A DNA stretch of 64,000 nt, taken from positions 4,269,930-4,333,929 of the forward strand of contig JASSKH010000007.1 of assembly GCA_031763025.1 (NCBI GenBank), in the 5' to 3' direction. The notes under the pieces were generated by a model. The model made no database searches. It saw nothing but the letters and a program-made list of their open reading frames with translations, and was not told the DNA's origin. This DNA is from Macrocystis pyrifera. Its lineage: Eukaryota > Sar > Phaeophyceae > Laminariales > Laminariaceae. Both the position numbers and the translations under genes were made by a program. This document shows, piece by piece, positions 24,164-59,607 of the stretch. The number at the start of each line of letters is the position of its first letter. The first letter of the stretch is position 1.

Positions 24164-24227
<64 letters not shown>

Positions 24228-27200: not shown

Positions 27201-30200
27201 ACCTCCGATCCACGCATCCCGTCGAAAAAAAACTGGAGTTTTCCGACGGGACGCGTAGATTGGATTGCCCGATAATTTTTTTTTTTCAAGTTGGGGATCG
27301 AAATGGCTCTTTTTCAACAGTACCATGGTGAAAAAAAGCCTGATCTCTTTCGATTGGAAACCGGCTTTTTCGATCCCCACGTATCCGACTCCACAAGAAT
27401 TAGCCTAACACGTTAACTATTAATAGACATTTTTTTTTCAATCTTCGTGAAAAGGCCTTGCTGCATACGGTACTTACGTACTCACAGCAGTAGGCCCGTA
27501 CTTTAGTCATAACTCAGATCCCACATCCGGGGGCGTGAGTCGCTACGAAGCAGGGGCTTCCCCCCCCCCCCCCTCCACCACCATATACGACAACGTGCCT
27601 TGCATTTTTTCATCGCGAGAAGACGCCAGTCAGCCTTCTTACTTCCCTCGCCGACTCGCGTCAAATTAACCCTGCTAGTGCTGCAGTCAGTCCTGTCGTA
27701 GGGGCAAAAGCCACTGCCTGTGAACCCTTTTAGTACCCCAGTTCCGATTTGGGGACAAACCGGTCTAATTCCAAGTGATTTGTCCTCAAAACGGGACTGC
27801 GGTGCTAAAAGGGTCAACTAACTATTACGGGGGTCCATAGTTAATAGGACCTATGGTATACATAAAAAAACCTATATATTTACCTATTTTTACTGACAAA
27901 AATTGGTCCCGTTAACTATGGGCCCCCGTAATAGATGGGTTAAGCCTGCCTACCCACGCTTGGCGCTCTCAGCAGTTGATCCCTCTCACGTACGAACATG
28001 CCGCATACCACTCTGTCCTTCAATAAAAGGACCGTTTATCCACTAATATTCAATATAAACGTTCACTTTAATTTGGGACAGAGAGGTACCCTGGTATGTA
28101 TCACTGCCGTGTGTGTAATTAAGTCAGTGGTACCCTGATGGCTGCAGCTGCTGTGTTTAATGAAGGGCGCACGGCCTCGTTCTACATCCTACATACATCA
28201 CAGCAGTGGAGTGTTTTGCGCTTTTTTTATTTTCTACTTTTTACTTCTCCAAAATGTCTGCCCATTAATAGAAGCAATTTTTCTATTACGGGGGACCATA
28301 GTAAATAGGACCAAATATTGTTAGTAAAAATAGGTAAATATATAGGTTTTTGTGCGTACCGTAGGTCCTATTAACTATGAACCCCCGTAACAGGTGAATT
28401 TTGCGAAAAAAAACGGCAAAAAAAAAAAAATGACTTTAGGGAAGGTAGGGTTTGATCGGAAGTTGCGGTAACTTTTGCCTCTCTGCTGCATTGGCCTACG
28501 AGTACACGCACCGAGCATTATCCCGACGCAGAACGCATCTCCCAAGGAGTAACACACCGAGCATCTTCCATGCCTCCACGCACCGTGTTGCTTGTCGTAC
28601 ACAACACGACGAAGCACAAGAGACTCGAGAGGTGTAGCTGGAGTATAACGCGGACGAGCGGCCTTGGATTGTCCCAACGGGGTGGCGGTCCGCTGCTACG
28701 GTAGGCTTTCGCCTGCTTGCGTGTCGTGGAGGATGCGTCGTCCCGAAAGGACTCGTACTCGTACTTGTGCTCTTACCGCCTTGTTTGTAGAGCGCGACAG
28801 CATGACAGCTCGTGTATCATTCCAATTCCACCATACTGCGGTAGCAGCAGCAGCAGCAGCAGAAGCAGCAGCAGCACCGGCCGCGGCGGCGGCGGCGGAG
28901 CGGAGCGCGCCGGCGCTGTGGCGTGCGTAGGCCGAGCGCAGCAGCAACAACAGCAGCAGCAGAGCAGCAGCAGCAGCAGCAGCAGCAATCGAAAAAAAGG
29001 AAGCTGGTGCTTTTGCTGGTGCTGGTGCTGATGTTGTCTATTTTTGTTGCTCAAGCTGACACTGCCCGCGCTAGTCGCCCCTAGCTGCGGCTAGCGATAG
29101 CTAGCTGCCGCTTGCTGTGGTGCTGCTTGCGGTCGTGGGATGGCTGTGCCGCCGCTGGCACTGCTGTGGTCAACTCTGCCGCCGACACCGTTGTTAGGCT
29201 GCCGTTGCTACTCGCTCGCTGTTTTTTTTTGTTTTTCGTTCTTTTTTTGTTTGCCACGTTGCCTCACCTCCCCACTTCCCTTCTTATTATCGGAGGCGTC
29301 GCCTCCAGGATTTGGTATACCTCGTCCGCAAAACACACCTAAATCATGATGGGAAGAAGGGACTTCACTTTTTTTAGAAGCAAAGTAAATTTCTCAAGAC
29401 ACTTTTTTCGCAAACACACTATTGATACCAGTACCAGTACCAGTACGTCGTGTTCATACTCTATTTACGTACTTATTTTTTTCCTTCGCATTTACAGCAT
29501 TGTCTTCGCCCTTCTTTCTCCTGATCCCTCCCTTACATACCACTATTACGGGGGACCATAGTAAACAGGACCAAAATATTGTTAGTAAAAAAATAAAACA
29601 TGTAGGTTTTTGTATGTACGGTAGGTCCTATTTACTACCGTCCCCCCGTAATATCGTAGTAAATAGGACCAAATATTGTTAGTAAAAATAGGGAAACATA
29701 TAGGTTTTTGTGTGTATCGTAGGTCCTATTTAATATGCCCCCCCGTTTATATAATATAACGGGGGGACGATAGTAAATAGGAGCTACCGTACATACAAAA
29801 ACCTATATATATATATATTTTTTTACGAACAATATTTGGTCCTGTTTACTATGGTCCCCCGAAACGGTAGTCGTAACTCATTTCCGGGGGCACAAAGCGG
29901 ATTCCTCTAACCCCCCCTCCGTGCTTCGGCGGTATGTACATACATACTGCTGCTGTACCAGGTACGCGCCTTTATTTTCATCGCGAGAAAGGTACGAGTA
30001 CGAACAGAGCTTTTCTGCCCCTCGTCGACTCCCGTCGAACTTTTGCATATATTTATATCATACACACACCGGCGTCCCCGGTGGCTTGGTAGGTGGTCCG
30101 CGTGCCTATCGAGATCAATTTCGTGGGTTCGAGTCTCGCCGAGTGCATGCTCGTTCGTAGGGACTTTTTCTTGCATGAAAAAAATGATTATTAATAGTGC

Positions 30201-32170: not shown

Positions 32171-32994
32171 TGTTAAGATCATGCAGGCGGGACACTTTGT
32201 ATCCCTGGACAGGTTTGCCTATTAAGTCGGTACTTGTTGGTACTCACGTGTCTTGGTTGCTTAGAGATAGAAGAAGAGCAGCTTTATCCCTTTCCCGCGC
32301 GCGGAGACTGAGACCGAGCTCGTGCCCCTCTGTAAAACCCCTGGTTTTCCACCTAAGATACGCTTTCCAAGTACCACAAATACGATCCCAGTGCCTGAAC
32401 CCACGTAATTACCGGGCTTTCAACCTCATTGAAGGCAGTATCATAACACTAGCCCACTCTGATAAGCCGTATATGCAGAATTATGGGAAATTCATGGAAA
32501 CCCCGATTCCACGAACTAGAACATGAATGAGTCGAAGATGCGGCTCCTCAAAACCCACTCCCACACCTCTGAACGGCAAGGCAACGAAGCCGGCAAAGTA
32601 CCTAAAAAAAATGAAAGGAAGACCTAGCCTTAAGGGACAGGAAGAAATCGTCAATGGAAGCTATCGCCATGCCACCCGCACGGGGGGGGGAGGCAAGGAA
32701 GATGCATGGAAAAGCGAAATTGAAGACCAAAAACGAGAAGAAAAATAATACGGAAGACGGTAAGAACCACCTAAACCCAGCAAACAACTCTGAAAACGCG
32801 TCCTGGGTCACAAATGAGTGGCCCGATTACCTAGACCACAGCCCCGACACTGAGCGGCGGGGGTAAGCAGGATAATATACGCTAAAATCATCCCCAACCC
32901 AACCCAAGAAAAAAGAAAAAAACAGAAACACACCGAGCAGAATAATCCCCGACCCGAAAACTCGGAAAACGTCAAGAAGTAGAAAAAAAGCGCA
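32171..32994 (-). mobile_element. Ty3/gypsy 3' LTR of the minus-strand copy
   Basis: In element orientation it starts TGCGC right after the purine tract TATGGGGG and ends CTTAACA, giving TG...CA ends over 824 bp. It is homologous over most of its length, in reverse, to 36,509-37,369, and in part to 36,232-36,395 and to about 43,850-44,040. It contains a plus-strand (antisense) frame beginning MSRRCGSSKPTPTPLNGK that recurs in the other LTR. Confidence 0.65.
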
Positions 32995-33055
32995 CCCCCA
33001 TAAATCCAGGGAAACGACAAGAAAGCTCAGATCGAACGCAGCCGAGAAGCGAAAG

Positions 33056-36000
33056 TCAGCGATCCATGGCGGTGCCTCGAGATTCATCTACGTTTCGCTG
33101 GACCCCCCGTGCAAACGCGCTAGCCAAGTGAACTTGCAGACACCAAGAACCTCGTACAGCTCTCGTCGAAGTCGTGTAGCGCGCCGGAGAAAGAGGAAGC
33201 TTGCTCGGGTCGTCCAAACATCGAACCAAATATACTTCATCCGTTGGCGTAGTTGCGCTGATTTCCCGAATCACCACAGACCGTCGTCGCCCTTGTACCA
33301 AAATGGGCCCCGTTGGGAAGTACAGTTTTGCTGTATCGGCGAAGCCAATCGGCGTGCGATACGCAGCCATAGCCTGGTTCCAGAAACCGCTCGCCGTCAC
33401 TCCGAGAATGCTCCCGTTGTGCCGCGCCGACTCTCATTCGGCGGTACAGGCGGTTGGTTTGGCGGTGTTGGTTGGAGGTGCCGGCCCAGTAGCGCAAAAA
33501 TTCGTGGCGAGAAAGCTGAAGGTCCATTTCCCGTTCCCAGGATGGACGGGATAGTCCTGCTCAGTGCGTCTCGTACGTTACCGCGATGACGCCACCCCGA
33601 CCTCTAACCGATTGGTGTCCGATAATCTTTTCCACTTCGAGTCGTTCAAGAGGGGTCGAAACGTCGTCATCGGTGACGTGGTACGGCGGGGATTTCTTGG
33701 AGAAGTTGTTGAGCACGTACTGCAACCCCGCCGCAAAATACTTCGGCATGTCGCCACGGTCGTGAGGGTTGGCACAGGGCTTGCAGCGTTGAACTGATAC
33801 CCGCCGGCGAACCTCAGCGCCGGGCATTTCGGAAGGAAGATCTAAATACAGGAGCTTTGCTCCGAGAGGAGATCTGTCGCGGGTGTCCGCTGAGGAGCAG
33901 GGGCCAACTGCGAGGACTTTGTACGGGCCTGTCCAGCTGATTGAGAGTTTGGCCTTGAGGACCTTGGCGTCCGTGTCGGGTTTCGCACCATGGCGGATGG
34001 TGACCGCCGTATTGTACACCCACGCCCAGCCGACAACGTCAAATTTGGGGACTGGACGCAGAGCGTCGGCGAGGGCGAAGTTGCGGCGGTTCACGCGAAC
34101 AACAGTGAGGGCGTGGTGTTCGCGAACGATATCGTACGCGCGCTGCTGGCGGTCCGTCGCCATGTCGCAGTACGCAAGGTGGTCGCGGGCCAGGCTCTGG
34201 TGGCCGGCGACTCCAGCACGCTTGAAATCGTGAGAGGGAGGCGTGGCAGCCGACCCATATGTACCTCGTTGGGAGCCAAACCCGTGGCGGCGCTGACGGC
34301 ATTATTGTACGCAAATTCGACGTGAGGGAGCTGTTCATCCCAGTTGTTTTGGAGCTCGTTGACGACCATTGCCAGCATCTGGGCCATCGTGTAGTTTACA
34401 CGTTCCTTCCCACCGTTGCCGTTTGGGTGGTAGGAGCTGATCGCAATTTTTCGAACCCCGAGAAGCTGATATACGGCGTGCGAAAGCTTGGAGCACAACT
34501 AGAGGCCGTTGTCTGAGAGGATGCTGCGCCGGCACCCCCAGAGGGGGATATACCGGTTGACGAGAATATTAGCCGTGCTCTCAGCAGTGAACTCTGCCGC
34601 TGTGACGGCGTACATATCGGCTCGGCGACTGAAACGATCAGTGAAAAGCAAGATCTAGGTATTACCTCGAGGCGTCCCCAGGAGAGGGCCCAAATAGTCG
34701 ATGCTGACGGCGATGCCGGACCCTTCTGCCAAGGGCAACGTAATGGTGGGCCACCGGACCGTCTGCCGCGACGTTTTCCATGCTTGGCACTTCAAGCAGT
34801 TGCGTAACCACCACCGGGTGCAGATGTTCATACCGATCCACCAGTAGAAACGTTCGAGCATACGTAGGGTGCACGCGGTTCCTAGGTAGCAGGAAGCCGT
34901 GGAATGGCAAGCCTGCATGACCCAGGGGCGCATGAGCAGCGGAACACAAATGTGAATAGGCTCGTCGTTCAATAAACAGGCCGTACGACCCACCTGGCGT
35001 TGCGTATCCGACGCAGGGGGGGGGACGACTGTCGGACAAGTAGAACGATGCCCGCGTCGGTGGTGTACAAGCGGCCTTTGGTGGCCAGCTCTTGAACTTC
35101 CGAAAAGGGGGGCACTGGTGGGAAGGGAAACACGACAAAAAGTCGTCTGGCAAAACTTCGGCCGGCCAAGCGCTATGTAGCGCATGGCGGTACTGCACGC
35201 GGGCTCGGCCTGTTGTTCCCGAGTCCAGTCGGCGTGCGAATAGCGCGCGGCGGAATCACCGAAGTGAAATTCGGCTGCTGCGCCGAGAGCGTCCAAAACG
35301 GTAATGTTGACGGGCGGTACGTCAATCGGCAGCGGAAGCCGTAAAAGAGGAGTCCCCACGGGCTCGGCGCGGTCGCGGTCAGACGGGATGGGTGCCGTCG
35401 GGATCGGCGAGGCGGCAGGAGCCGGGGCCAATACGACGGAGTCGGGCGGTCGCGGCTGTGAGGCTCGCGGTGGGGTGACAGCTCGCGGGGCGGGTGGTGT
35501 AGGGGCCCCGCCGGGCCCGAAGCCATAATAAACAGCAGGCGGCGCGGTGTCAGCGGCAACGGCTGTTCGTCGGCGCGTCCGAGAAGAGATGCGGCCTGAA
35601 GGCGGCAAGATGTTCAGAGGCGCCGAGTTGCCAGGCGGCAAAGGGGGAGACGCGGCCGGCCCAGTGATCACGGCGGAATCCTCTCTCTGTAGTGTGCTCG
35701 TCGGGAGAGGAGCGCGCTGGGCGACAATCGTCGCTGCAGCGGGGGCTTCTGCAGAGCCCTGATCGCTCCCGGAGGGTACGACCAAAACCCAAGCGAAAAC
35801 AGAGTTGGCGGCGGGGGAAAAAACCCAAAAGCCAGGACGGCGATCGACGGTGGCAACGGAAGCAGATACACGAGCGACGAATCTCCCCGAAGGAGCAGAG
35901 AAGTCGTCAATCCTCATACGTGGTCCGTGTGCGCGAAAATCGCGAAACTCCGAAGAGGTGAAACGCAGCCCACCCAAGACGACACTTTCACTGTGGGGCA

Positions 36001-36259
36001 CCAGCCCACCCAAACCAACACCAGGGGTCGGCGAAGAGCGAGTGCGAAGCACGCAGGCTCGGATAAGGAAGATACCACCGTACTCGACGGGGTTGAGGCA
36101 GCTAGACCCACTGCGATCGTGTTCTGTGGCGGGCTCCGACAAACGGGAGAGAAGATCAACATTTCCGTTGGCGCTGCCTTTGCGGTACTCGAGGGTGTAG
36201 TCGAACGCGGTGAGAAACTCGAGCTTTGTTCCTCTCGTGCGCGCGGAGACTGAGACCAA
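33056..36259 (-). pseudogene. Ty3/gypsy pol remnant: RNase H end, integrase, C-terminal tail
   Basis: The frame opens in the end of RNase H (LEYRKGSANGNVDLLSRL), so reverse transcriptase and everything before it is missing. About 300 residues of Pro/Ala-rich linker follow. The integrase zinc region (ACHSTASCYLG...CLKCQ, 34,910-34,785) has Tyr where the second His is expected. The catalytic residues are visible: Asp in VSIDYLGPL (34,699), Asp in ILSDNG, Glu in GGKERVN. Two in-frame TAG codons (34,655 and 34,499) and a one-base frameshift near 34,220 break the frame. The C-terminal part (34,163-33,561) holds VGWAWVYNTAVTIRHGAK and ends RGRGGVIAVTYETH. A further tail in other frames runs to 33,056. 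The plus copy at 41.7-42.8 kb matches this end closely. Confidence 0.85.
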
Positions 36260-36395
36260 GCTCGTGCCCCTGAGGAAAACCCCTGGTTTTCCACCTAAGA
36301 TACGCCTTCCAAGTACTACAAATACGTTCCCAGTGCTTGAATCCAGGTAATTACCGGGCTTTCAACCTCATTGAAGGTAGTATCATAACACTAAT
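36232..36395 (-). mobile_element. Partial gypsy LTR joined to the RNase H remnant
   Basis: CGCGCGGAGACTGAGACC through TATCATAACACTA matches 32,293-32,450 in the same direction. It stops abruptly at both sides: at RNase H sequence on the left, and at unrelated DNA (ATAGGTGCGG) on the right. It looks like the remains of the 5' LTR after an internal deletion. Confidence 0.65.
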
Positions 36396-36508: not shown

Positions 36509-37369
36509 TGCTGTTTTTCAGAGGTGGGGAGGGTATCCTGTTTTTTTTGCTTGGGCCGGGTTGGGGATGGTTTTTGCGTGTGTTGACCTGCCGACCCTTC
36601 CCGCTCAGTGTCGAGGCTGGTCAGGGTAATCGAACCACTCATTTTGTGGCACAGGACACGTTTCAGGAATGTTGGTCTGGGTTTAGGTGTTTTTTTGGCA
36701 TATTCCGTGTTATTTTCCTTCTCGTCCTGCCGACCCCCCCGCTCGGGAGCTGGGGGCGACCTGGATAAAATTGACACCGAATACTGGGTCACAGGACCGT
36801 CTCGATTTTTGTGTCAACTTTTCGCTTTCCCGTAGACACTTTCGCGCCCCACCCCCTTTGCGGGTGGCATGGCGATGGCTTTCGTTGACGATCTATTCCG
36901 CCCCTTACGGCTAGGCTTTTTCCTTTCTTTCTTTTTTTGGCGTACCTTGCCGGCGTCGTAACCTTGCCGTTCAGAGGTGTGGGAGTGGGTTTTGAGGAGC
37001 CGCATCTTCGACTCATGTTCTAGCGGAACCGGGGCTTCCACGAATTTCCCGTAATTCCGCATGTACGGCTCATCAGAGTGGGCTAGTGTTATGGTACTAC
37101 TTTGAATGAGGCTGGAAGCCCGGTAGTTACCTGGGTTCAGGTATTGGGGTCGTATTTGTAGTACTTGGGAGGCGTATCTTAGATGGAAAACCGGGAGTTT
37201 TCCCAGCGAGGCATGAGCCTTGCTCTCAGTCTCTCATCGTGCACGAAAGGAACAAAGCTGCTCTTCTTCTATCTCTAAGCAAACAACACATGTGAGTCCC
37301 ACCGAGTACTTGCTCAACAGGCAAACCTATAACAAGAGGTACAAAGTGTCCCGAACTTTGAACTTAACA
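36509..37369 (+). mobile_element. Ty3/gypsy 5' LTR of the plus-strand copy
   Basis: About 861 bp, starting TGCTGTTTTTC and ending CTTAACA, the reverse of the LTR at 32,171-32,994. It is immediately followed by a TGG-initiated sequence suited to a primer binding site. Orientation agrees with the NADAR-protease and integrase remnants downstream. Confidence 0.65.
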
Positions 37370-37387
37370 TGGGGGGGTGACAGACCC
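37370..37387 (+). promoter_or_regulatory. Probable primer binding site of the plus-strand gypsy copy
   Basis: TGGGGGGGTGACAGACC begins at the first base after the LTR end CA and starts with TGG, complementary to a tRNA 3' CCA. The tRNA was not identified. Confidence 0.4.
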
Positions 37388-37832
37388 CGCACTCGCCCAT
37401 GAATAGCGTGGCTATAATACAAGGGGCTTGTACGACACAGCTGTTGTTGGAGCCGAGACCCCAAAAAACAGAGCAACTCCACAGCAGCTGCATGCAGCAG
37501 TAGAATCCTATTTAGTATAGGAGCAGCTGCTGTCGGGTACGTAATTCGTGTCGAAACGGGGGGTATAATATGACGGCTTATCCCACGGTGGTAGAGGTTA
37601 CACGTTGGGGCTCAATATTTTCTTAACGGTTGAGCTCCTCAAGTGAAAATTATTATAAGTACATATTCCGGATAGTACCACGATACTTTCACTTACAATA
37701 GTATTTGTCCTACTGTAGGACTATTACAGAGGACGTATAGTAGAACAAACAGGACCGATCATACACACAAAAATGTTGTAAGGTTTAGATTCGGCAAGAG
37801 AGGTACCCAAGATTACTGCACGCTGCACGCAC
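37388..37832. other. Untranslated leader between primer site and NADAR domain
   Basis: No gag-like or zinc-knuckle sequence is seen. A MITE-like half arm (CTATTACAGAGGACGTATAG) sits at about 37,719. Confidence 0.4.
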
Positions 37833-38300
37833 GACATCGTGTTCTTCTGGCAACCCCCCTCTTGCTTTCGCAATAGACGCCTTCCCGTTTTTACGGTTGA
37901 AAGCATCTCTTATTCCTGCCGCGAACAGTTCTAAGCTGCGGAAAAGAGCCGCCTCCTCAAAGGCCATCAGACTCTACAACACATCATGCGCGTGTCTGAC
38001 CCTCGCCTGCACAAGCAATATGGACGAGAAGTCCGTAATTTCGATCTCGCTGTGTGGGAACACGAGCGAGAAATTATCGTGCTTGTCGGCTCCTACGCTA
38101 AGTTTGCTCAAAACCCGGCCATGCGAACCCATCTCTTGGGCACAGGTGACAAACGTCTTGCGAAAGCTAGCCCTTTCGACCTCATATGGGGCATCGGATA
38201 CTGGGCCGACGCTACTCCTGCACGCCAGCCGCCACAATGGCGCGACTCAAATTTTATGGGCAAGGCTCTTCACAACGTGCGACATATCTTCCGCAAACGC
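37833..38300 (+). pseudogene. NADAR domain inside the gypsy element, one in-frame stop
   Basis: NADAR (YbiA-like, formerly DUF1768) proteins are N-glycosidases of the NAD/ADP-ribose and riboflavin-intermediate kind; some remove ADP-ribose from guanine bases. The plus frame reads IVFFWQPPS, FTVESISYSCREQF, then TAA (37,932), AAEKSRLL, FAQNPAMRTHLLGTGDKRLA, KASPFDLIWGIGYWADA, PQWRDSNFMGKALHNVR. These are the family's opening FW..P..F, VDGxxYxSxEQF, the FxQNPxLRxxLLxTGDxxLxEASPxDxxWGIG centre and the NxLGxALMxVR end, with normal spacing over about 155 residues. The stop replaces one residue of the EQF-x-AAEK helix. The domain sits between LTR and protease on the same strand, so it was probably part of the element's polyprotein; a captured host gene is the alternative. 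Confidence 0.75.
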
Positions 38301-38353
38301 GCGCCGCCACCGACGCGCCACCAATTATGGTCTCCTCTGAGCACCTCGCCCTC

Positions 38354-38462
38354 TGTTACGGAGGACCATAGTAAACAGGACCAAATATTATTAGTAAAAA
38401 TTGGCAAATATATAGGTTTTTGTGTGTACCGTAGGTCCTATTAACTATGGCTCCCCGTAATA
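38354..38462. mobile_element. 110 bp palindromic MITE inside the gypsy element
   Basis: TGTTACGGAGGACCATAG to ACTATGGCTCCCCGTAATAG, inserted between the NADAR and protease regions. Confidence 0.85.
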
Positions 38463-39622
38463 GTAGAGATCGCATTTTCGAAGTTGACCCTCGACGCGAC
38501 AGCGACTGTGCCCAAGTGACACGCCTGCAGCCGCCCCCCCTGTCGGGATATCCCGACTATCCTCCAAACGTGCCATCGGACCACGGCCGCGACGTTCTCG
38601 AGGTAATATCTGCCGCCCGCTGCGGTCAGCACCCCCCCTTGCTCGCCGATCAAGGGCCTCGTCTTGTTGCTGGTGCAGTAACAATGGACGACTCTTCCTT
38701 CACCGCCAAAATCAAGGTCCACAGTGGCCTAGCTACTCTGCAGCTTGGATGTGTCGCCCTCTTGGATGCGGGCTCGCCGTTGACCTTCATTAACACCCAC
38801 GAGTTCGGCAGCATGGAGCACGTGGGTGCTGCCTCTGCCACCGGCGAACGACACACCCCTCCCAGGTCGTGGGGCGGCTTTGGTCTATCCTCGCCTCTTG
38901 AGACCTCCGTTACCGTACGCTTAAGCGTGCAGTTTTCCCGACGAAAAACTAACTGAATCACTCGCCGTATGGGCATACGTCGTCCCATCTGAAGCTATGC
39001 AACACGACGTGCTACTCGGACGCGACAGCTGGATGCGGTTCCAGGACCGCTCCTACGGTACGATAGCTTCCTGCCCGAGGACTGATAGGGTTCTCGGCAA
39101 GCTCACGCTGTCGCCCCCGAGACTACAGGCGCAACAGCGTTTGTTCCCGACTCTTTGGTTCACCCTGAGAGCTTCCACCTACTCTATGCGGGTGACACCG
39201 GCATCACCTTGGCCCGCGACCATTGAGTTGTTCATGTCGATTTAGTTCGTAGTAACGGTGTCCCTACCCTCGCCGGTTGCTACCTGGTCAACATGCTGCA
39301 CGCGGCCACTGATTTTTCCACGGAAGAACGCCTTGTGGAAAATGGTCGCCGGCTCACCCCATCAGCCGGCGTCGCGGATCTAAACCCAGGTCCCTTGATT
39401 GGCACCTCCTCTAGCCCGCTGTTACGCGTACCCCTGAAAGCTGTCCTGTCCGACGCTCCGGCTCCTTCTTCACGTCCTCACGACTTGGACGCCCATCACC
39501 TCTCAGTTCCAGGTCCAGTCTCCGCTGGTTCCATGGGCGAGGACCGGCGCTCACCACCACAGTGCCTGGATCCCTTCGTCCACAATCTGCGAGACGAGAC
39601 AGCGCCGACACGCGAAGAATCC
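38463..39622 (+). pseudogene. Ty3/gypsy aspartic protease region, frameshifted
   Basis: A spacer rich in Pro leads to IKVHSGLATLQ and CVALLDAGSPLTFINT. The catalytic triad reads Asp-Ala-Gly (Asp codon at 38,765) where retropepsins usually have DTG or DSG. Near 38,945 the frame shifts; the next frame gives DVLLGRDSWMRF, the usual flap-following IxGxD-type motif. Another shift near 39,235 leads to the frame of 39,293-39,622 (LVNMLHAATDFSTEERL), a linker before the expected reverse transcriptase. That domain is absent, and the frame is interrupted at 39,623 by a transposon. Confidence 0.75.
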
Positions 39623-41526
39623 ACACCTCGGATAACGTACCACTCGGATAACACTTATCTACGTAATGGGGCCTAACAGAGGAACGTTGTAACGTACTAA
39701 CACAGTGTTAGCACTAGAGGGGCGATCACGGTAATGCGGTAACGCAGTGTTAACTGGAAACCCACGAACGTGCACGAGCCTTAACGTTATGTTGCTGCTC
39801 GCTCTCGTCCAGCTCTGGTACAGCAGTAACATTATGTTATGCCGTGATCAGTCCTTCAACTAACACCGTAACACAGTGTTAGGCTTTGACCAAACACGTA
39901 CATTATCACTCTAACATGCCCAGATCGATATCCGCATATATACTAGCACGATAACATAAAGTTATTGTCGACGCAGCGTTAGACGTAACACACTAACATA
40001 GTGTTACCTTTAGGAGGAGTGCTATACATAACACCCTAACATAACGTTACCATGTTCGCCAGCACTACTAACACATAACCATGTGTTACAGATAACACAC
40101 TAACGTAACATAACGCAATGGCCAACACTACTAACACTACGTTATCTGGATCCCCCATCTGATTGCCTTAGGCTCGGATAACGTAACACTTAACGTACGT
40201 TAGGTACGTTAGAATCTTAGCCGGCCTATACGTAATATTATGTTAGGATGTTAGCCTAAATGCGGAACTCTCTGTAACATTATGTTACGGTGTTACCGTC
40301 AGTAAAGATCTGATGGTAACATTCCGCTACCGTGTTACCATAAAAATCAATCCGGGTCTAACTTTATTTTACTGAGTTGCCGTTGGGGCCGAAGTCGTTC
40401 TAACGTAATGTTACTACGTTACCCTTTGGATCTTCCCGAGATCTAACATTTGTTACCTGTGTTAGTGGTAAAGCGTACGTGTAGGAGTAACATAACGTAG
40501 CCGTGTTATCTAATTTCGCCGACATCCCAGTAGGGGATACCTGAAAACATATCCCCGGGGGAGAGGATAGCATGGCACCTCCGGTAAAAAAAAAAAACGC
40601 CTCCATATTTTAAAAACCCAAAACAGGGGGATATTTAGGAGGGATCCCCGCAAAAAAAACGTCTCATTTTTTCTGGAAACCCCGCCAGTACGTTATCCAC
40701 CTACAACACAGTACGCTATCTATCTATAACGTAATCTGCACACTCACACGTACGAGTTAACACGGCAGTAACATATTGTTGATGTTAGATTGGGGGTGTA
40801 CGTTATCTGCTAACTTGTGTCACTACATACATTGCATACGAGTTAACACATTAACAGAATGCTAATGTTTTATCGATCATATACGTTATCCGTTTGACGT
40901 ATGTCATGCTATGGGAGCAAGTCTTCCGTAATACCCTCACGTATCGTCGCTCGATACGGACCGCTGCTGCGGCTGATACGGTAACATAATATTAACGTTG
41001 TATTGACCATATACGCCATCCCTCGTGTGTTACGATTGCCACTAGGAATTTCACTATCACGTTAAACATAGTGTTATGTACGCGTTTATTTGGCCGTGTA
41101 CGTTATCTGTCGAAAGGGCGTTACGGTAGCGAGTAAGAATCCCATTGACACACTAACATAACGTTACTCGCTACAGGTTGATGTCGCTAACACGGTAACA
41201 TAATGTCAACGTTTAATTGACCATGTACGTTATGCCTTCAACGTGTGTTACGATAGCCACCAGGAATTCCGCTAACACGCTAACATAGTGGTACTCGCTA
41301 TGGACTGCATACCCTAACACCGTAACACATATACTGCGGTCAGTACGGGATCAAGGTAACACTCTAACATAATGTTACGCGATCGCCCGCCAATATTGTA
41401 ACACACTAACACTACGTTATCACAAAATCCAGAAAGTTGTTAACGTAGTAACGTAATGTTAAGTTTTTTTTTTCGCTGACGCCTAACATTAACATAAAAC
41501 GTTAAGTGTTACGTTATCCGAGGTGT
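39623..41526. mobile_element. 1,904 bp TIR element with palindrome-packed interior, nested in gypsy
   Basis: Ends ACACCTCGGATAACGTA and TACGTTATCCGAGGTGT form a perfect 17 bp inverted repeat. They are flanked by identical 10 bp copies CGAAGAATCC (39,613-39,622 and 41,527-41,536). A 9-11 bp duplication suggests a Mutator-like relative, but the class is inferred. No transposase frame is present. The interior holds about 25 diverged copies of TAACAC-NN-TAACATAATGTTA, spaced 40-90 bp. They point forward in the left third (to about 40,150), reversed in the middle (40,190-40,510) and forward again from about 40,740. It interrupts the gypsy linker frame exactly; one target copy keeps that frame. Confidence 0.85.
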
Positions 41527-42757
41527 CGAAGAATCCGCGGCCTCTTCGGCTCCGCCTGTCGACCGCTCCCCTTCACCTGCCCTGCTCGAACGAGTGCGCA
41601 CCGACCAACGCACGAGTTTTTCAGCAAGTATGGACTCGCTTATCGTCGCATATGCGTGAATTCGCATTTGAATTGCGTGGTCTCGGTTGGACGCTCACCG
41701 TCATCACCCAGTTGGGAGATGTCCTACAACTCAACGCCCTACCTACACCATCGGGGACTGGGTATGGTTTTACAACACCGCTGCCACCATTCGCCAGGGC
41801 GCGAAATCTGGCTCAGACGCCAAGGTTCTCGAGGCGAAGCTATCGATCAACTGGACGGGTCCTTTCAAGATATTAGCTGTTGGCCCCGCGCCCTCCGACT
41901 CGACGCCGGATGGCCGCCCTTTAGCCGCCAAATTGTTATACTTGGACCTTCCTAACGACATGTCGGGCGCTGACGCTCACTGTCGCGTGTCGATAGCCAG
42001 CTGCAAACCTTGCACCAACCCACATGGCACAACCGACCTCCCCCGATACCGTCTCGCTGGACTAACGCAATACGTCCTCAACAACCATGCCACTAAGTCC
42101 CCCCCCTTCCACGTCACCGCCGACGACGTTTCGGTTCCCATTGAGAGTTTGGAGGTCGACAAGATTTCCAACCATCGGTCAGAACGAGGCCGGGGCGGAG
42201 TCATCGCCGTTCTCTACGAAACACACTGAAAAGGCCTCCTCCGGCCGTCTTGAGAACGCGAATCGGACCTCCTTCACTCTCGACAACACATCCTCAACTA
42301 CTGGGCCGGCGCGCCCCTACAACTTCGACAGACAAACAGGGCGTACCGCTGTATGCATGCGCGTGGGTGCCGCTCAACGCGAGCTCGCCCGCGACAAGGG
42401 CGCCCGTTTTCTGCCTCCTGGATACAGCTACGTCAACCAGCAAACGTGGACTCCCCGGTTCAGCGGCACCACCTTGCCTATCGGCGCTCACTTTTGGTAC
42501 ACAAGGGTCAAGATCATCTTTCGTGGCTCGGAAAAATTTCCGGGCACGCTTCAACTCCTGGACAGTATGTAGTTTGCTTCTTGGACGACCCCGGACCGGT
42601 CAAGCTCACGCTATCTTCCGCTCGGTGTACTACGGCTCTTGGAACCGTTCGCGGCTCGTGGTGTCTGCAAGTGCACCAAGGAAGTTTGCTCATGCGTGGT
42701 ATTGTGCGCAACGTCGGCCAGTCCCGCGGAGCTGAATTAGCAGGCTCTGCCGACTAA
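41527..42757 (+). pseudogene. Ty3/gypsy integrase C-terminal region and tail, broken
   Basis: After the target duplication a short frame continues to a stop at about 41,660. Then IGDWVWFYNTAATIRQGAK, INWTGPFKILAVGP and RGRGGVIAVLYETH repeat the integrase C-terminal half of the minus copy, with clear amino-acid similarity. A further tail (MRVGAAQRELARDKGARFLP; VRGSWCLQVHQ) matches 33,527-33,056 on the minus strand. Reverse transcriptase, RNase H and the integrase core are missing, so this copy suffered an internal deletion before or independently of the transposon insertion. Confidence 0.8.
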
Positions 42758-43849
42758 AACACGTCCCCGTAGCGAATTTTAGTTTTCGCATGCGTGTCTT
42801 CTGTAGTCACCGGGGCTAGGGTTGGTATCGTGTCACTATTTTGGCGGTTTCTTTGATTTGTTGTGATGTAGGTGTACTGTTTGTTTGACTTTCCACGAAC
42901 TCCCCAGTCGTTTACCTGCTTTCACGGCAACCGACTGCTGAGTTCTTGCACCGATTGGTCTTACGATTAGATTAACTTCTGCCTCCTTGCCATCAGGTCG
43001 CTCGTCTCTTGCGTTCCGAATCTACGATTGTTTTTCGCCCCCTTTTCGAGAGCGGCGGAAACGTCTGTTCGCTTCGTGATTCCTTCTCGCGATCTATTTC
43101 GATTCTTCAGGACCAGCGTGATCAGTCGTACCAGTTTTTTTTTTTTGTTCTTGTCTTGTATCCCTTATTCTTTCTGTGGTTTTCCCGAGGCCAGGTTCGT
43201 GAGCGTTTTATACGCATCTTACAGCTTGCCCTAGGCTTAGGTCTGACTCATTTGCCGTTCGTGCGTTCCCCCTCCGCCTTCCTAATATCCCCAAGCAGGC
43301 CGAGATGATACATTTCGTTCTTCAGCGACAGCTTACATTCCGCCCTTTCCCGCGCGATCTAGCATAGGCCGTGACGATGTCTGCTGTTTGTATGTTTCGT
43401 GTTTTAGCGCGCTCAAAGTCGACGAACTCTCGCACGGGTCCTCCCCGCCCTCTTTGTGTGGGATCGGGTCTGGACTGTCTTGGGTTCTCTCATGGCGTGA
43501 TTTCCCTTACTCCGACACTGTTCTCACTGTTCGAGTAAGCTCCGTCGCGCCAGTACATGTTCCGTTACGCTACCCCTCCGTTGGTGTTTCACATTTTCGA
43601 AGCACCTCGTGCCTTCGCAGTGGGTAGTGTAATATATTTTGTTTTCCTCCCTTTGTGTTTCGTTCTCAGGTACTTTCGAATGGTACATTGCTCGACTAGC
43701 CATAGCCTATGTCACCCCTGTTTACGCGAGCCACTCCGCTTCCTCGAATTTAGTTCCTCGATTTAGCGTCCGGGTAGTACTAGCTTGTTTTGCCAACTTT
43801 CGCGTACCCGTTTTTTTTCGGACTTTTTGTTGTCTGATTCGCAGCGTTC
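42758..43849. other. 3' region of the plus-strand gypsy copy, T-rich, no gene recognised
   Basis: Short T-rich frames only. It probably includes element 3' sequence and the diverged first part of the second LTR, whose start I could not fix. Confidence 0.35.
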
Positions 43850-44045
43850 ACGTGCTATCGGCTACAGCCTTGCAAGTTATAGGTGCGGGGGTGGGTTGTG
43901 AAGCGTCGCATCTTCGATCCATTCTCCAAAATTCTCCGGACTGGTTTGGTTCGTGCCTGATTTTTCTATAAATCTGCATATACGGCTCCTCGGGGTGGGC
44001 TAGCGTTATGGTATTCCCTCTCCCCCGTTGCGGTATTACGATTTG
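43850..44045 (+). mobile_element. Diverged 3' LTR segment of the plus-strand gypsy copy
   Basis: GGTGCGGGGGTGGGTTGTGA, CGCATCTTCGATCCATTCT and GGGTGGGCTAGCGTTATGGT match the LTR at 36,970-37,100. On the minus strand it encodes ITLAHPEEPYMQIY, as the other LTRs encode ITLAHSDKPYMQNY. It is much more diverged than the other LTR copies. Confidence 0.5.
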
Positions 44046-44059
44046 TAGCAAGCGCCCCC

Positions 44060-45915
44060 TCATCATGTCTGGCCGGCGTCATCGCCTGCCTTTCTGATGA
44101 GTGCCTCGCCCCTTCGTTCAGAAGACATCTGGCGACGCAAGCAGCAGCAACTAATACAAGAGCCTATAGCTTTGAACATCGTCAAGCACCTTGCGTGAGT
44201 GACCAGAGCAGAGCCAAAAGCATCACCTGCTAGCAGTATTCGGTCCCTAAGTCCATACTGCCTTACACTTAACACTGAAGACGCGTCATTCCATAGGAAG
44301 GCAGAGGCCGCCTCTGCGACAGACGACGAATGCCGCTCGGCCGTCGAGTCTTGCCGCGGCCCACGAACAAGCACCGTAGGAAGAACGTTTCTGTAGGTCG
44401 GGCAGTACATCGGCCCGGTGCCAGCCGTAGAGCGTGCATCTTGCTGAGAGCCTACTGGTGGCGGAGAAGGAGCGTTTGGTGGAAATTATTTGTTGGAGCG
44501 AACGAGACGATCATTCAGAAGATCTACGTCCACGGCATCCCGAGCACGTCAACCGCATCCCGAGCAGGCTCGGGATGCAGGACTGCAATCCTGCGCGCAC
44601 GCCACGACACGCGCCGGAGCTTCGAAAAAGCTTTCACGTCGCAAGTATTTCGCGGCTCCGGGACTCCAACATGCACGGCAGGGAGGATGCACCATGTGCA
44701 CGAATACTGCCGGGAAATCGGTGTATAGGAGGGGTGATGTCTCTCTCAAATACTGTTCGTAGCCTCCGCTGAAAACGCGCTGGCAGTGCCCCTTTGTTCC
44801 TTTGCTTGCAAGCGGCAGGAGAATTGGTTCGGTTTATGCTTGGCGCGAATGCACGGACTCACTGTTTTCAGACTACTGCTGACATAGAATATTCTTGGTC
44901 GATTAACTGACCGGAATAGTGTTTGCGCTTGATGCTAGTCTTGTACTAAGCTAGTAGGTAAACCTGTGTAAAAACTGCAGGTTTTACAGGGTGGGCAGAG
45001 ACGCAGCAGACTGCTACCAGGTATATGGTAGTGTGTTTGTTTTCCATTTCTTGGTCAACTAACTGATCGCTGGGGTGTTATCCTCGCATCTTATTTGGTA
45101 GCGCACGTAAACCACGAGCAGGGTATGCGGCAAGACTACACCCATATTGCCGCCGTTCGTGCACGGGCCGGCATATGTTGTTCAACTGTTGCCTACCAGG
45201 TATGAGTTAAAACATATTTCCTGCTGCAAAACCCATTGTTGTGCAGGTCTTCGAGATTGCGGACAATTGAAACTAGTATCAATCTCACGTACCTGTGAGT
45301 GAGAAAATTCGTCAGGGAGCTAAATCATTCGGTGTAGAATAGCGAGTTCGACGATTTCGCCTCCATCGGGGGGTCGTGCTTGTGTTAGATACTTCCCTTC
45401 AAGCAGCAAGCTAGTAGCCTACCGAGTCGCTGGCTGGCAACATAGTCGCCTTGGTCAGTGGCCATTAGAACGTAATTCTACTGCAGCATGAAAATCAAAC
45501 ACAGGATTATGTGTTCTATCCACACGTACAGTAGATACGTAATGCAAAAAAGCGTTGTATTATGAACACTTAATCGAAGAAACAGCAAATACGAAACGAT
45601 CACGAGAAAACATCGAGGAACGGCCACGAGCGAGCATCGAGGAACGGTCACGAGCAAGCATCCTAGCAACGTTGCTGTAGGTCGGGCAGTACCATAGCCC
45701 GGTACTAGCCATAGAGCGTGCATGTTGCTGAGAGCTGACTGATCGTGGCACCCCCATCCTCGCGCTCTCCTTTCTTCCTTCTCTCAATCGGCCCGAGGGC
45801 GCCATGTCAACATCATCAACATATCTCTTCTGGAGGAAGCTCGCAACCGGACTTGCCTAACAGCGATCCAAGCGCTTACCTTTCGACTATCATCATAATC
45901 GGCCACGGTCATCCG
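44060..45915. other. No recognisable gene; a dispersed repeat pair
   Basis: Segments 44,388-44,460 and 45,667-45,745 share TGTAGGTCGGGCAGTAC, CCCGGTxCxAGCC and TAGAGCGTGCAT..TTGCTGAGAGC. Frames up to 132 residues show no family motifs. An inverted CCGAGCACGTCAACCGCATC / CCCGAGCAGGCTCGGGATG cluster lies at 44,538-44,578. Confidence 0.45.
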
Positions 45916-54416: not shown

Positions 54417-55304
54417 TCGAGAAGGAAATCAACGCGTGGGCAGAGGCGAACGTATATACATCAGAAAGGGAAGACAGTGGTTCGGGAGGGTTACAGAGAG
54501 AATTCACAAGGGAAGAAGTAAAGAAGTGTGTAGCTAAACTTAAGAATCGAAAGGCAGCAGGGGCAGACCAACTAGTGAATGAAGTTATGAAGTACGGGGG
54601 AGAAGGAATGCTTACTATGATGGTTATGTTGTATAACTGGACACGGAAAAGCGAGTACGCACCTAGGAGGTGGAGATAAGGAGTAGAAGTATAAACTTAT
54701 TCAAGAAAGGAGATAAAGCTGACCCGGGGAACTATAGAGGGATAATGCTACTACTAATAAGCACAGTAGGCAAATATTTTGTGAGATGTTGAACGATAGA
54801 ATGGGAACGATGATGGAGAAGGAAGACAAAATAAGCGAAGGGCAAGCAGGGTTTAGGCCAAACCGTAGCTGCGTAGACCATGTGTATACCTTAGGTAAGA
54901 TTATTCAAGGTAGAAAGACGAGGGACTAACAGCGTACTGTTTCTTTCTAGATGTGCAGAAAGCCTACGACACAGTATGGATAAATGAATTGTGGAAAAAA
55001 CTGTGGGAAATAGGAATCAGAGGAAAGAAAGATGCGGATGAATGATGAAAAAGATGACGGAATGTGCGAGAAGTGCTGTGATGCTGGACGGGGAAATATC
55101 GAAGTATGTTGATATTTTACAAGGAGTTGCACAGGGATGTACGTTGTCACCTAACCTATTCCAGATATATATTAACGACCTGATAGTAGCAGTCGAAGCA
55201 GCAAGGCAGGGAGTCACGGTAGGGGAAGATACGGTGTCGGGATTGATATTTGCGGATGACTTCGCGGGGTATCTGAAACACCAGAAGGATTGCAGAAACA
55301 AATA
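54417..55304 (+). pseudogene. LINE reverse transcriptase remnant
   Basis: Pieces in several frames: VAKLKNRKAAGADQLVNEV (RT motif 0/1), GQAGFRPNRSCVDHVYTL, CFFLDVQKAYDTVW (first catalytic Asp), QGVAQGCTLSPNLFQIYIND, and LIFADDFAG (FADD replaces the usual YADD). Stops lie at about 54,678 and 54,928 and there are several frameshifts. Not functional. Confidence 0.85.
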
Positions 55305-55500
55305 GAGAACGCGCTACCGTAGAATAATACACTAGGAAACGGAGGGTGACGGCGAACGTCAAGAAATGCGCAGTAGTTGTTTGCAACGAAGATAAGGTAA
55401 ACCCGGTAAAGTTCAGTCGGAAGTGGGGAGAAGGTAATTTGCCGATTGTAGACCAAATAGAGACACGAGAAAGTTGAAATGACAATATAAAGCAAGAAAC

Positions 55501-56268
55501 ATGCCAAAAAAGGGGTTGCCAGCCATCGTTGATAGAGCTGTACGGGAGAAAATAATCAAAGGGCGAGCTGGAATAAGGTGGGATGGCGTAGTTGAGAAAG
55601 TATGGAAGGATATAGGGGGAAACCAAGAAGAGATTATTTCCGCCGGGAAGTTTGGGAGGTACAAGGCAGAAGTAGAAGAAAGGATAGAAAAAAGGGAAAG
55701 GCTAGCGCTAAGAAACAAGGTGGAATCGGAAAAACACTTAGAGATATACGGGGGATTGAGCGAAGGAATAGGAATGAAAAAATATTTGCACGGCCCAATG
55801 GACTTGGCGAAAACGCTGAAACTGCTATTTCGTGTAAGTGACTCGGACTTGCCAGAAAGAAGAAAGAGGTATACCAGTAGCCGGGAGGAGGAAGTAGATG
55901 CACAGACGTGCCCGTGTGGCAAAGCAATAGAGAGTAGAAGTCACAGAGTAGGAGAGTGTGAAATGTACAAGAAGCAATGGGATGTGTTAGAAGAGGAGAT
56001 GAGGGAAATATACGAATGTGACATGGAGGAGTCTGATACACTAGATAGCAGCGAGAGAACGATCGCTATCCTAGGAGATAGATGGTGGCCACAGGCGGCC
56101 AAACAGGAAGGGGATAAGATTAGCAAAAAAAATCTATGTAATAATATGTGGAAACAACGTAATGAGCGCCCAACTGTTGGAGATGTCTCTTTTAGGAGAA
56201 GGAACGGTGCTCAGTCTCGAAAGGGGTGCGTGGTCAATGGTCAAATGACTAAGGCGAGCAACAAATGA
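55501..56268 (+). pseudogene. LINE C-terminal region with zinc knuckle
   Basis: A 255-residue open frame, the best-kept part of the element. CPCGKAIESRSHRVGEC is a Cys-x-Cys-x8-His-x4-Cys knuckle of the type found downstream of RT in several LINE clades. The stop, TGA in AACAAATGAGTAC, is part of the conserved 3' end just before the C tail. Confidence 0.75.
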
Positions 56269-56280
56269 GTACCCCCCCCC

Positions 56281-56313
<33 letters not shown>

Positions 56314-56314
<1 letters not shown>

Positions 56315-56733
56315 CGCCCTCCCCCCACTACTCCTACCCCGCTACCTCCCCTATTCCCCCCCCCCCCCCTTCATCCTCCCCTCTTTCCCCCCCCCCCTTC
56401 ATCCCCCCCTCACTCCCTCCCACACCCCCCCCCGTTCCCCGCCCGCTGCCCCCCCCCCCCCGGCCCCCCCCTCCGCTTCCCCCCTTCCCCAACCCTTCTG
56501 GTTTAGTGTCCATGACGAGAAGTGCGACACTCGCCGCGCGGCACTACTCTAGCGCACACCATGGTTGCTGCTGCTGTTGTACACGACTGCTGAGGTCACA
56601 CATACTCATTTTTATCGGGTCCGATTGCCCGGGTCCCCCCAAAACAGAGCGTTGTAGAACCAGGATACGGTGAAGCATGTGCGGGACGGGCACGGTCCTT
56701 ACATCGTTGGCCATCCGACCGCGTGCGGCATGC
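56314..56733. repeat. C-rich low-complexity sequence
   Basis: Continuation of the LINE tail into mixed C/T microsatellite to about 56,490, then unassigned sequence without frames. Confidence 0.6.
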
Positions 56734-57132
56734 CTACGGTGAGCTTCGACGTTGACCGCTCAGAAAGATTCTCCGAAGGTTTTTGAAGAAAATCCGAGGG
56801 CGAAACAAACCCGAAAGCTGTAAGTATAGGCAAGATTGATTCGTGCTCGGTTGGTTGTTCGTTCGCACGTGACAAGGCAGACAGTTGGTCACGTCTAGCT
56901 CTTTCTTGTTGCCTCGCCCAGATGCACCTTCTGACTCCTGACAGAAGCGGAGAATGATCGGTTCCACCTTCCGAAGGAACGGTGGTGCAGCGTCCAGAGA
57001 GGAGATAAGATGGAACAACAACGCTAGCGGCACATCATCGTGAGAGTTTTGCTTCATTTCTGCTCTTGCTGCCATCGTACAGCAGCAGCAACTGTAGCAT
57101 AGAGGGCCCATGGAAAACAGCAAACACATCAA
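56734..57132 (-). CDS. Unrecognised open frame
   Basis: A 132-residue minus-strand frame. The part from MAARAEMKQNSHDDVPLA through ELDVTNCL has protein-like composition (LALLFHLISSLD, FLRKVEPIILRFCQE) and could be an exon, but I recognise no family and no partner exons. Confidence 0.2.
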   Translation of the reverse strand: MMCLLFSMGPLCYSCCCCTMAARAEMKQNSHDDVPLALLFHLISSLDAAPPFLRKVEPIILRFCQESEGASGRGNKKELDVTNCLPCHVRTNNQPSTNQSCLYLQLSGLFRPRIFFKNLRRIFLSGQRRSSP

Positions 57133-57296
57133 CAGCTCGAGGCTCTCACTTTTGGGGGGCGCTGTACCGAATAAATTTCGATTGATGAGTTCGTGCAGCG
57201 GCGAGTTCTACACTAAATTCTATAACACAGCCTTATCTTTGAGGGTTGCTTGTGCGGCTGGTGTCACTTCAGCGTCTTTTGAAGCCTTGCTCGGAC

Positions 57297-57407
57297 TATT
57301 ACTGGGGACCGTATTAAATAGGACCGAACATCGTTAGTAAAAATAGGCAAAATATATAGGTTGTTGAGTGTACCGTAGGTCCTATTTACTACGGTCCTCC
57401 GTAATAG
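57297..57407. mobile_element. 110 bp palindromic MITE
   Basis: TATTACTGGGGACCGTATTA to ACTACGGTCCTCCGTAATAG. Confidence 0.85.
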
Positions 57408-57911
57408 GCATTTCTGTTGGCGGGCCCAGTACCATGCCCTTAGTTATTGCCCCGAGAGGCCTGTAATGATCCAGAATTTGGGAACTTGGAACAAGGATGA
57501 CGTACACATGCACGAATTTTCTTATGAGACCAGTGTACGCGCTATTCCTACGTCCTATTGATACAGTACATGACAGCAGTGAGTAATCTCTTGTGCTGTG
57601 TGCACGTTGGCTGAGGATCGCGGCTCATCGTGATGTTAACGCTGAGCACGGGCTCTTCCAAAGGATTCAGAGTGACGTTTCTCGCCGAGGACAAATAAAC
57701 GCCTACGTACGATACAGGAGTTGAGCTGTAAATTCTTAAACTATAGAAGAAGAAGAAACGAATATCAGCCTGAAATTCTTATCTCTCCAAATTCTGGACA
57801 CATGTCGCGTGCTGTGAACGGTTACGTAGCACTACACTACTGCTCTTCCTCTCGTATTCTGGGCCGTTCCCACAAGTGGCATTATAAATAGCACGAAGAT
57901 GCAGTGCTTTA

Positions 57912-58019
57912 TATCACGGGGGACCATAGTAAATAGGACCAAATATTGTCAGTAAAAATAGGTAAATATATAGGTTTTTATGTAGACCATAGGTCCTATT
58001 AACTATGGACCCCCGTAAT
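57912..58019. mobile_element. 110 bp palindromic MITE
   Basis: TATCACGGGGGACCATAG to ACTATGGACCCCCGTAATG. Confidence 0.85.
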
Positions 58020-58235
58020 GGTTCTTTTTCAGGATCCGCCCGGAATCACTCACTGCTGTGTTGTTCGATGTGATACTGCATGAGGAACACGATATATTGT
58101 TTCCGGGGATTTCTTCTTTCAGAAACGTTTTGAGTGATCAAACGTTCGAGCTCATGCTGCACATGGTCGGATGGCAAAAGCACAACAGCAAATATATCTA
58201 TATGCCGAAAGAAAAGGTGCAGCAGCACAGTCTAC

Positions 58236-58344
58236 TATCACGGGAGACCATAGTTAATAGGACCTACGGTACACACAAAAAATTATATATCTACCTGTTT
58301 TTACCAACAATATTTGGTCCTATTTACTACGGTTCCCCGTAATA
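58236..58344. mobile_element. 110 bp palindromic MITE
   Basis: TATCACGGGAGACCATAG to ACTACGGTTCCCCGTAATA, inverted relative to its two neighbours. Confidence 0.85.
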
Positions 58345-58450
58345 CCTGACGTGACGTGCTCACTCAGTAGGCTTGGAGTACGGGCCCCGCATTTATTTGC
58401 TCGTTTTCTGTTGGGGCGCTTGCACGCGTGCGTACGATGGGCGAAGGAAT

Positions 58451-58563
58451 TGTTACGGGAGGACCATAGTAAATAGGACCCAATATTGTTAGTAAAAAAA
58501 TATGTAAATAGATAGGTTTTTGTGGGTACCGTAGGTCCTATTTACTATGGACCCCCGTAATAG
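58451..58563. mobile_element. 110 bp palindromic MITE
   Basis: TGTTACGGGAGGACCATAG to ACTATGGACCCCCGTAATAG. Confidence 0.85.
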
Positions 58564-58779
58564 TCAGCGGTAAGGCAAGCAAGTAAGCAAGCAAGCAATT
58601 ATTCATACGTGTATGTAACTGGTATATACGTAACAGCTGTATTTAGAAAATACTGAATCGGGTAAAGCAATAACTTGCAATGATCTGAATCCACCATTTT
58701 CCTACAGAAAGGAGCGGAGGAGAACAGCTATTTTTTTCTACGGTACGAGCAGCTACGCGCGTACGTGAGCCCGCGGTAC

Positions 58780-59075
58780 AAGTAGGGCGGGGGGGGAGGG
58801 GAGCGGGGGCAGGGTTTGGGGGGGTGCTCATTGTGGTGCATGGCCGTAGGGTTATGACCATAGACCCTCGCGTCCCTACAAAGCCGGGACGGAGCACGTC
58901 GGGTTTTCACCGATCAGGCATAGACGTTGCTTGCACCAAGCGTGAAGCGCCGTGAGGTGTTGGGTGAGTCGCATGGAGGATGAGCTGCATCCTGCTAAGG
59001 ACAGCTTTTGGAGGCGGACTTTCTCACATATGGGTGACAGCGTCAATAAATTGATTTTATAAATTGATTCCAGAA
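58780..59075 (-). mobile_element. SINE-like repeat, full length
   Basis: Minus-strand copy from TTATTGACGCTGTCACCCAT through GGATGCAGCTCATCCTCCAT, CTTGGTGCAAGCAACGTCTA and CCGTCCCGGCTTTGTAGGGA. It ends ATGAGCACCCCCCC with a worn C-rich tail toward 58,780. Confidence 0.75.
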
Positions 59076-59553: not shown

Positions 59554-59607
59554 CTATGGTCACATGACAACTAGGGCCATGAATGATATTGAGTACCCCC
59601 CCCCCCC
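59554..59607 (+). mobile_element. SINE-like 3' fragment with C tail
   Basis: CTATGGTCACATGACAACTA, GGGCCATGAATGATATTGAG, TACCCC. It is only about 50 bp long and is preceded by another C tract at 59,532-59,551. Confidence 0.6.

Follow-up and report, generated by a model that had tools for sequence, protein, structure and literature searches.

The locus studied here is almost certainly a dead copy of a Ty3/gypsy-type family of long terminal repeat (LTR) retroelements in the giant kelp Macrocystis pyrifera, a family whose Pol polyprotein starts with a YbiA-type NADAR domain placed before the protease. It lies in a stretch of 64,000 nucleotides of contig JASSKH010000007.1 (positions 4,269,930 to 4,333,929 of the forward strand, assembly GCA_031763025.1), which we call the window and whose own numbering is used throughout. 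Comparison across sequences indicates that NADAR is very probably a selected, and probably catalytic, part of these elements, because its active-site residues mostly persist and its conservation equals that of the protease.

A decayed NADAR domain in the window

An open reading frame (ORF) on the plus strand at 37,935-38,444 matches Pfam NADAR (PF08719) at E 3.3e-31 over profile positions 46-162 of 163. This agrees with an earlier note made from the letters of the window, which had proposed a NADAR domain in this region from a series of five motifs; reading the plus strand from 37,701 gives all five in a single frame and in the order stated there, with an in-frame stop (37,932-37,934) inside the EQF/AAEK motif. 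Nucleotide identity to two other kelp copies, c1 and c3, is 87% over 37,935-38,353 and 91-92% over 37,823-37,932, position 37,823 being where homology of the NADAR element begins, and part of the N-terminal stretch before the stop is shifted out of the frame used by other copies. The letters of the catalytic E43 and K50 equivalents are both there, with the stop between them, and the equivalent of E125, the catalytic glutamate that marks the YbiA subfamily, is replaced by another residue. The NADAR domain conforms to the YbiA fold. Because E125 is kept by the family and changed in the window copy, we file the element family as YbiA-type and regard the window copy as no more than its decayed remnant. 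We considered and rejected the idea that the locus holds a host NADAR gene, since homology to LTR-bounded copies extends on both sides of the domain.

The NADAR-carrying family in the kelp genome

Searching the kelp genome (537,376,219 bases in 223 contigs) with a NADAR query returned 1,154 candidates, and 150 of them were scored; all 150 match, the window included. Places were found through NADAR itself. The match contains no stop at 109 of the 150 scored places, and at 17 it also lies, free of stops, in a frame of at least 700 residues. NADAR identities to the query fall mostly into two groups, ~75-84% (subfamily A) and 50-55% (subfamily B).

Ten copies, picked mainly for long frames, were examined with their flanks. 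Direct LTR pairs are present in eight, 95.7-100% identical, and this near-identity suggests recent activity of the family; a 4-bp target duplication was read in three of the eight. As the flanking letters of c1 and c2 are identical, the two may go back to one insertion, c2 being a duplicated copy of c1. Directly 3′ of the 5′ LTR, all eight LTR-paired copies carry TGGCGTC(G/T)TCG (read by eye), a candidate that is likely the primer site of the family. Upstream of NADAR, a gag-like CX2CX4HX4C knuckle was found in five of seven copies scanned, at a distance of 1.6-1.95 kb in c1, c3, c5 and c10 and 0.67 kb in c8, and was not found in c4 and c7.

Four pieces of one kelp pol gave, in order, NADAR, RVT_1 (1.2e-26), Integrase_H2C2 (1e-12), rve (2e-7, slightly under its cut-off) and a weak Chromo match (E 0.0023; 18.3 bits against a cut-off of 25.1), with no match for RNase H at E 0.01 in the pieces searched with Pfam. 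With the protease placed by homology and predicted fold, the order of the element is NADAR, protease, reverse transcriptase (RT), integrase and a weak chromodomain. An integrase that follows RT is the order of gypsy elements, not of copia elements. The earlier proposal of a Ty3/gypsy-type family with NADAR before the protease in the same frame is thus borne out by the kelp copies, in which NADAR is under purifying selection.

Catalytic residues and selection

We took the catalytic positions from PMC11543638 and mapped them through an alignment to 8bau, counting ungapped rows among 39 near homologues and a deeper set of 110. E43 is kept in 18/19 near homologues and 52/54 of the deeper set, K50 in 21/24 and 87/89, and E125 in 28/31 and 99/109, respectively. 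Among kelp loci, E125 is present in all 18 of subfamily B and in 19 of the 20 of subfamily A, the exception being the window (L025-L028 are identical). In the deeper set, structural positions are at least as conserved as catalytic ones (W133 108/110, G78 92/93).

Selection was estimated from 13 of the 20 A loci (different from one another and open, with the window excluded) and 15 of the 18 B loci. Between A and B, omega, the ratio of nonsynonymous (dN) to synonymous (dS) divergence, has a median of 0.24 over 195 pairs, all below 0.5, a figure that is rough because synonymous sites between the subfamilies are near saturation. Four A and seven B loci are open through the protease, giving 28 pairs for a comparison by domain: NADAR shows 56% identity, dN 0.38, a median dS of 1.75 and omega 0.22; the protease 56% identity, dN 0.37 and omega 0.13, with dS finite in only 4 of the 28 pairs; and the linker 26% identity and dN 0.92, with dS not computable. 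In a comparison of eleven diverged sequences, identity is level between NADAR and protease except in P0160 and P0253, in which NADAR identity to the rest is about 6 points below that of the protease. Because its conservation equals that of the protease and the linker is far less conserved, NADAR is, as judged from these alignments, kept like a core enzyme of the element.

Database relatives and the origin of retroelement NADARs

The first protein search yielded 39 NADAR-carrying proteins of ENA source, with 58-81% identity across the part that matched. Of 124 proteins, five were scored as having another order than the rest. One relative, P0157, has a predicted fold that is retropepsin-like in the protease region; a further structural comparison of this protein was a second look, and a family missing from its list is not thereby excluded. 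P0157 and later proteins belong to deep lineages of the NADAR-protease type; many of them lie on contigs of megabase size, and most have Cys in place of R93. Seven proteins (P0040-P0042 and P0044-P0047) were rejected as NADAR relatives, as they match a miniature inverted-repeat transposable element (MITE) whose read-through peptide attracts spurious protein matches; P0043, in contrast, aligns to the NADAR stretch, though in part in another frame. NADARs of bacteria and phages are further off, at 35-43% identity for the best 20 of 599 phage records; seven bacterial loci of the genome collection show 40-42% to an Ectocarpus-led NADAR alignment, and the viral contig search gave one phage-like contig, L001.

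We reconstructed two NADAR trees. The first had 70 rows, among them the window, 18 of 102 usable retroelement rows after clustering at 72%, and 43 of 73 stand-alone rows (62% clustering), with loci L006 and L007 excluded; on this tree, the retroelement label requires three changes. The second had 59 rows, chosen after the first tree was made: P0011, P0048, P0056, P0135, P0153, six bacterial or phage loci and two PDB rows were dropped, two kelp copies were added, and a protein from Ectocarpus sp. CCAP 1310/34 (P0071) was counted as a retroelement NADAR. P0071, which shares 62% identity with the relative P0023 across 28% of the query, is placed within the retroelement NADAR group in the trees. 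Two changes are required on the second tree, where 10% of 200 bootstrap trees recover a single retroelement clade; the approximately unbiased test does not reject such a clade (p-AU 0.179). In both trees, the NADARs of P0160 and P0253 are separated from the rest; these NADAR-protease ORFs, of Joint Genome Institute source, have proteases that do not look any more distant.

A proposed function and its alternatives

NADARs take ADP-ribose off guanine in single-stranded DNA (PMC11543638) and in RNA (PMC11833690), and show strong substrate specificity in cells (PMC11125620). For NADARs in polyproteins of eukaryotic RNA viruses, removal of host ADP-ribosylation from macromolecules has been proposed (PMC9503650). 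In the kelp elements, NADAR would be made as part of Pol, then released or kept beside the protease, and packaged together with the element RNA. There it would hydrolyse ADP-ribose on guanines of element RNA or single-stranded cDNA before or during reverse transcription, and removal of these adducts would keep reverse transcription and integration from being blocked by ADP-ribosylation. A dUTPase likewise adjoins the protease in some retroviruses, and is another enzyme that keeps templates clean. We put forward clearance of guanine ADP-ribose by a packaged NADAR tentatively, at somewhat less than an even chance; element identity, function and mechanism taken together as one chain come close to evenly balanced and fall short of it. 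A further idea is that a yet undiscovered enzyme of brown algae marks nucleic acid that is foreign or reverse-transcribed by ADP-ribosylating its guanines, and that the element survives by carrying an eraser in its own Pol; this is in our view unlikely. If true, it would make the NADAR of this element a first pointer to a eukaryotic defence against transposons based on nucleic-acid ADP-ribosylation.

Several observations weigh against the main reading, a working NADAR that clears guanine ADP-ribose for the element. No host enzyme is known that would make the ADP-ribosylated substrate, and a search for DarT (PF14487), whose control matched in 1 of 14 genomes, found no match in the kelp genome at the sensitivity used. 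The earlier note's suggestion that the domain could counter an ADP-ribosylation-based defence is sustained in part: a de-ADP-ribosylating role is plausible from the published activities (PMC11543638, PMC11833690), and the DarT result lends nothing to the defence itself. In the deeper set, 71/93 proteins carry Cys at the ADP-ribose-contact position R93, and in Ectocarpus protein P0071 K50 is replaced by Thr. Median omega within subfamily A is 0.45, with 41 of 62 pairs below 0.5 (62 of 78 pairs have dS >0.03), and within subfamily B it is 0.65, with 21 of 102 pairs below 0.5 (102 of 105 have dS >0.03); these high values perhaps come from dead copies included in the sample. The near saturation that makes the A-B omega rough counts on the same side.

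That the catalytic residues are mostly kept also fits a NADAR whose substrates are soluble NAD- or ADP-ribose-derived molecules, such as host alarm signals or damaged nucleotides, and which would clean a pool much as a dUTPase does. According to PMC9503650, soluble ADP-ribose derivatives might be the preferred substrates of viral NADARs; the paper also gives riboflavin-pathway intermediates as NADAR substrates. A position within Pol would instead suggest action at the particle, and we regard soluble substrates as rather unlikely. The authors of the Ectocarpus study offer the possibility that NADAR assists the processing or repair of element RNA in transposition (PMC12477816); this seems improbable, given that the NADARs tested showed no activity towards phosphate-end adducts of RNA (PMC11833690) and that the four pol pieces searched hold no RNA-repair partner domain.

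Conservation by itself is no proof of catalysis, and the domain could have turned into a nucleic-acid-binding or structural part of the polyprotein. The frequent Cys at R93, the E125 differences in 10/109 proteins and the strong conservation of W133 and G78 would all suit such a change, but the retention of E43 and K50 in the deeper set, and of E125 throughout both kelp subfamilies save for the window, makes it more doubtful still. As for a host NADAR gene or fragment captured by chance and forming no component of the element, the wrecked state of the window copy and the LTR of another subfamily upstream of it are what one might then see; however, both kelp subfamilies and the database lineages place NADAR before the protease and conserve it like the protease, and we give chance capture almost no credence.

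Anatomy of the window copy and neighbouring repeats

The anatomy of the window was read by blastn against c1, c3 and c10 (Table 1). The element is 5′-truncated, with neither 5′ LTR nor gag, carries two insertions, and has lost RT and the integrase core by deletion.

Table 1 Features of the NADAR element and its surroundings in the window.
Feature	Position	Strand	Basis
Internally deleted subfamily-B element, neighbour	32,171-36,391	-	blastn to c10, main pieces 86-90%; Pfam Integrase_H2C2 2.2e-9
3′ untranslated region (UTR) and 3′ LTR (LTR 37,087-37,369) of another, subfamily-B element	36,539-37,369	+	blastn to c10
Possible MITE copy, diverged, 5′ of NADAR	37,684-37,773		weak match to MITE stretch 29,607-29,690
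NADAR domain, decayed	37,823-38,353	+	Pfam PF08719 3.3e-31; nucleotide identity to kelp copies
MITE insertion separating NADAR from protease	38,354-38,461	+	repeat families D3/D5
Retropepsin (aspartic protease) region with the spacer after it, split across several frames	38,462-39,619	+	83% nucleotide identity to c1, c3
1.9-kb repeat-rich block with TAACATAATGTTA-like palindromes, inserted in element	39,620-41,526		flanks contiguous in c1, c3
Remaining pol (C-terminal part of integrase, chromodomain-like region) and 3′ UTR	41,527-44,006	+	blastn to c1, c3
3′ LTR of NADAR element, subfamily A type	44,007-44,277	+	83-85% to LTRs of c1, c2, c3, c4, c6

The earlier note had set the NADAR domain between an LTR with a primer site and the retropepsin. 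The retropepsin does lie downstream, from 38,462 on the plus strand; the upstream LTR and its primer site do not belong to the element. Subfamily-B copy c10 matches the window at 74.7% over 36,539-36,725 and at 80.6% over 36,817-37,369, and B-type LTRs match ~37,086-37,369 at 78-81%. We accordingly rejected the LTR at 37,087-37,369 as the NADAR element's own 5′ LTR, as subfamily-B copies identify it as the 3′ end of a B element, and an 830-bp LTR at 36,541-37,370, which the kelp copies resolve into B-type 3′ UTR and 3′ LTR; the LTR of the element's own type is the one at its 3′ end. The sequence after the upstream LTR is not the family motif TGGCGTC(G/T)TCG, for which the nearest window matches with at most two mismatches are at 34,203 and 41,538; at that stringency the window holds 10 matches, near chance (mean 4.26, largest shuffle 11).

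The MITE that separates NADAR from the protease sits between two stretches that are contiguous in c1 and c3. Upstream of NADAR, the possible MITE copy resembles its reference stretch at 69.9% over 93 columns (E 9e-5, inverted), a weak match. Window ORFs of the retropepsin region themselves gave no Pfam match, and the assignment comes from homology to uninterrupted database ORFs holding NADAR and protease and from the predicted fold of P0157. A deletion of ~3.6 kb follows 41,527-41,725, where c3 positions 1,763 and 5,391 adjoin at 41,725/41,732. Window ORFs in the remaining part of pol and the 3′ UTR gave no Pfam match, and the corresponding c1 piece matches Chromo weakly. Ten window ORFs and six upstream pieces searched with Pfam likewise gave no match.

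The neighbouring minus-strand B element comprises a partial LTR (36,391-36,222), integrase and a 3′ LTR (32,449-32,171); its partial LTR is joined straight to the later part of pol. The MITE family, ~110 bp long, occupies many places from 14,557 to 58,560; two reference copies in opposite orientations have 15 and 10 places, respectively, and the two lists overlap. A second short repeat of 91 bp with CTGCAGTCCCGTTTTGGGGACAAACC-like ends has seven copies between 7,342 and 46,005. A large inverted repeat of ~7 kb at 54,654-61,850 consists of seven stretch pairs that are 93-96% complementary, and two ORFs within it gave no Pfam match. Long G runs lie at ~14,168-14,230 and 24,165-24,227.

Comparison with known systems

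NADAR in the Gypsy Pol of Ectocarpus was published in 2025, its role being unclear there (PMC12477816), and the earlier note's remark that NADAR domains are linked to mobile elements in some eukaryotes was correct. Among the literature matches listed, this is the only report on NADAR in LTR elements, subscription papers and preprints falling mostly outside coverage; the available part of the giant kelp assembly paper (PMC10498591) mentions neither NADAR nor Gypsy. The kelp families fit the Ectocarpus description, and the arrangement itself is already known; what is new, as far as the matches listed go, are the kelp families, the evidence of selection and the corrected anatomy. The NADAR-Gypsy arrangement is numerous in giant kelp and also occurs on long database contigs, with the domain conserved like the protease. 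NADAR thereby looks less like a curiosity than like something these elements require, which justifies testing biochemically whether a retroelement carries its own ADP-ribose eraser.

The dUTPase of Mason-Pfizer monkey virus, an accessory nucleotide-linked hydrolase beside the protease, has another fold and substrate and is an analogy only. The Phytophthora nicotianae NADAR 8bau and Escherichia coli YbiA 2b3w are YbiA-type stand-alone proteins, whereas the kelp domain is fused upstream of a retropepsin. NADARs of nidoviruses and of hepe-like and picorna-like viruses are, like the kelp domain, found inside the polyprotein of an RNA-based replicator, but their carriers are positive-strand RNA viruses without LTR or integrase (PMC9503650). 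The Tx1 long interspersed nuclear elements of the Pacific oyster also hold a YbiA-type NADAR in a retroelement, but are non-LTR elements with the domain in ORF1, not Pol (PMC12477816). The Ectocarpus Gypsy-12_Ec32 lineage shares with the kelp families a NADAR in Gypsy Pol and a brown-alga host, and a C-terminal chromodomain is reported for it (PMC12477816), for which kelp pol gives the weak Chromo match below cut-off. In comparison with Gypsy-12_Ec32, our analysis concerns another host, the giant kelp with its ~537 Mb genome, compares two diverged subfamilies and measures the selection acting on them.
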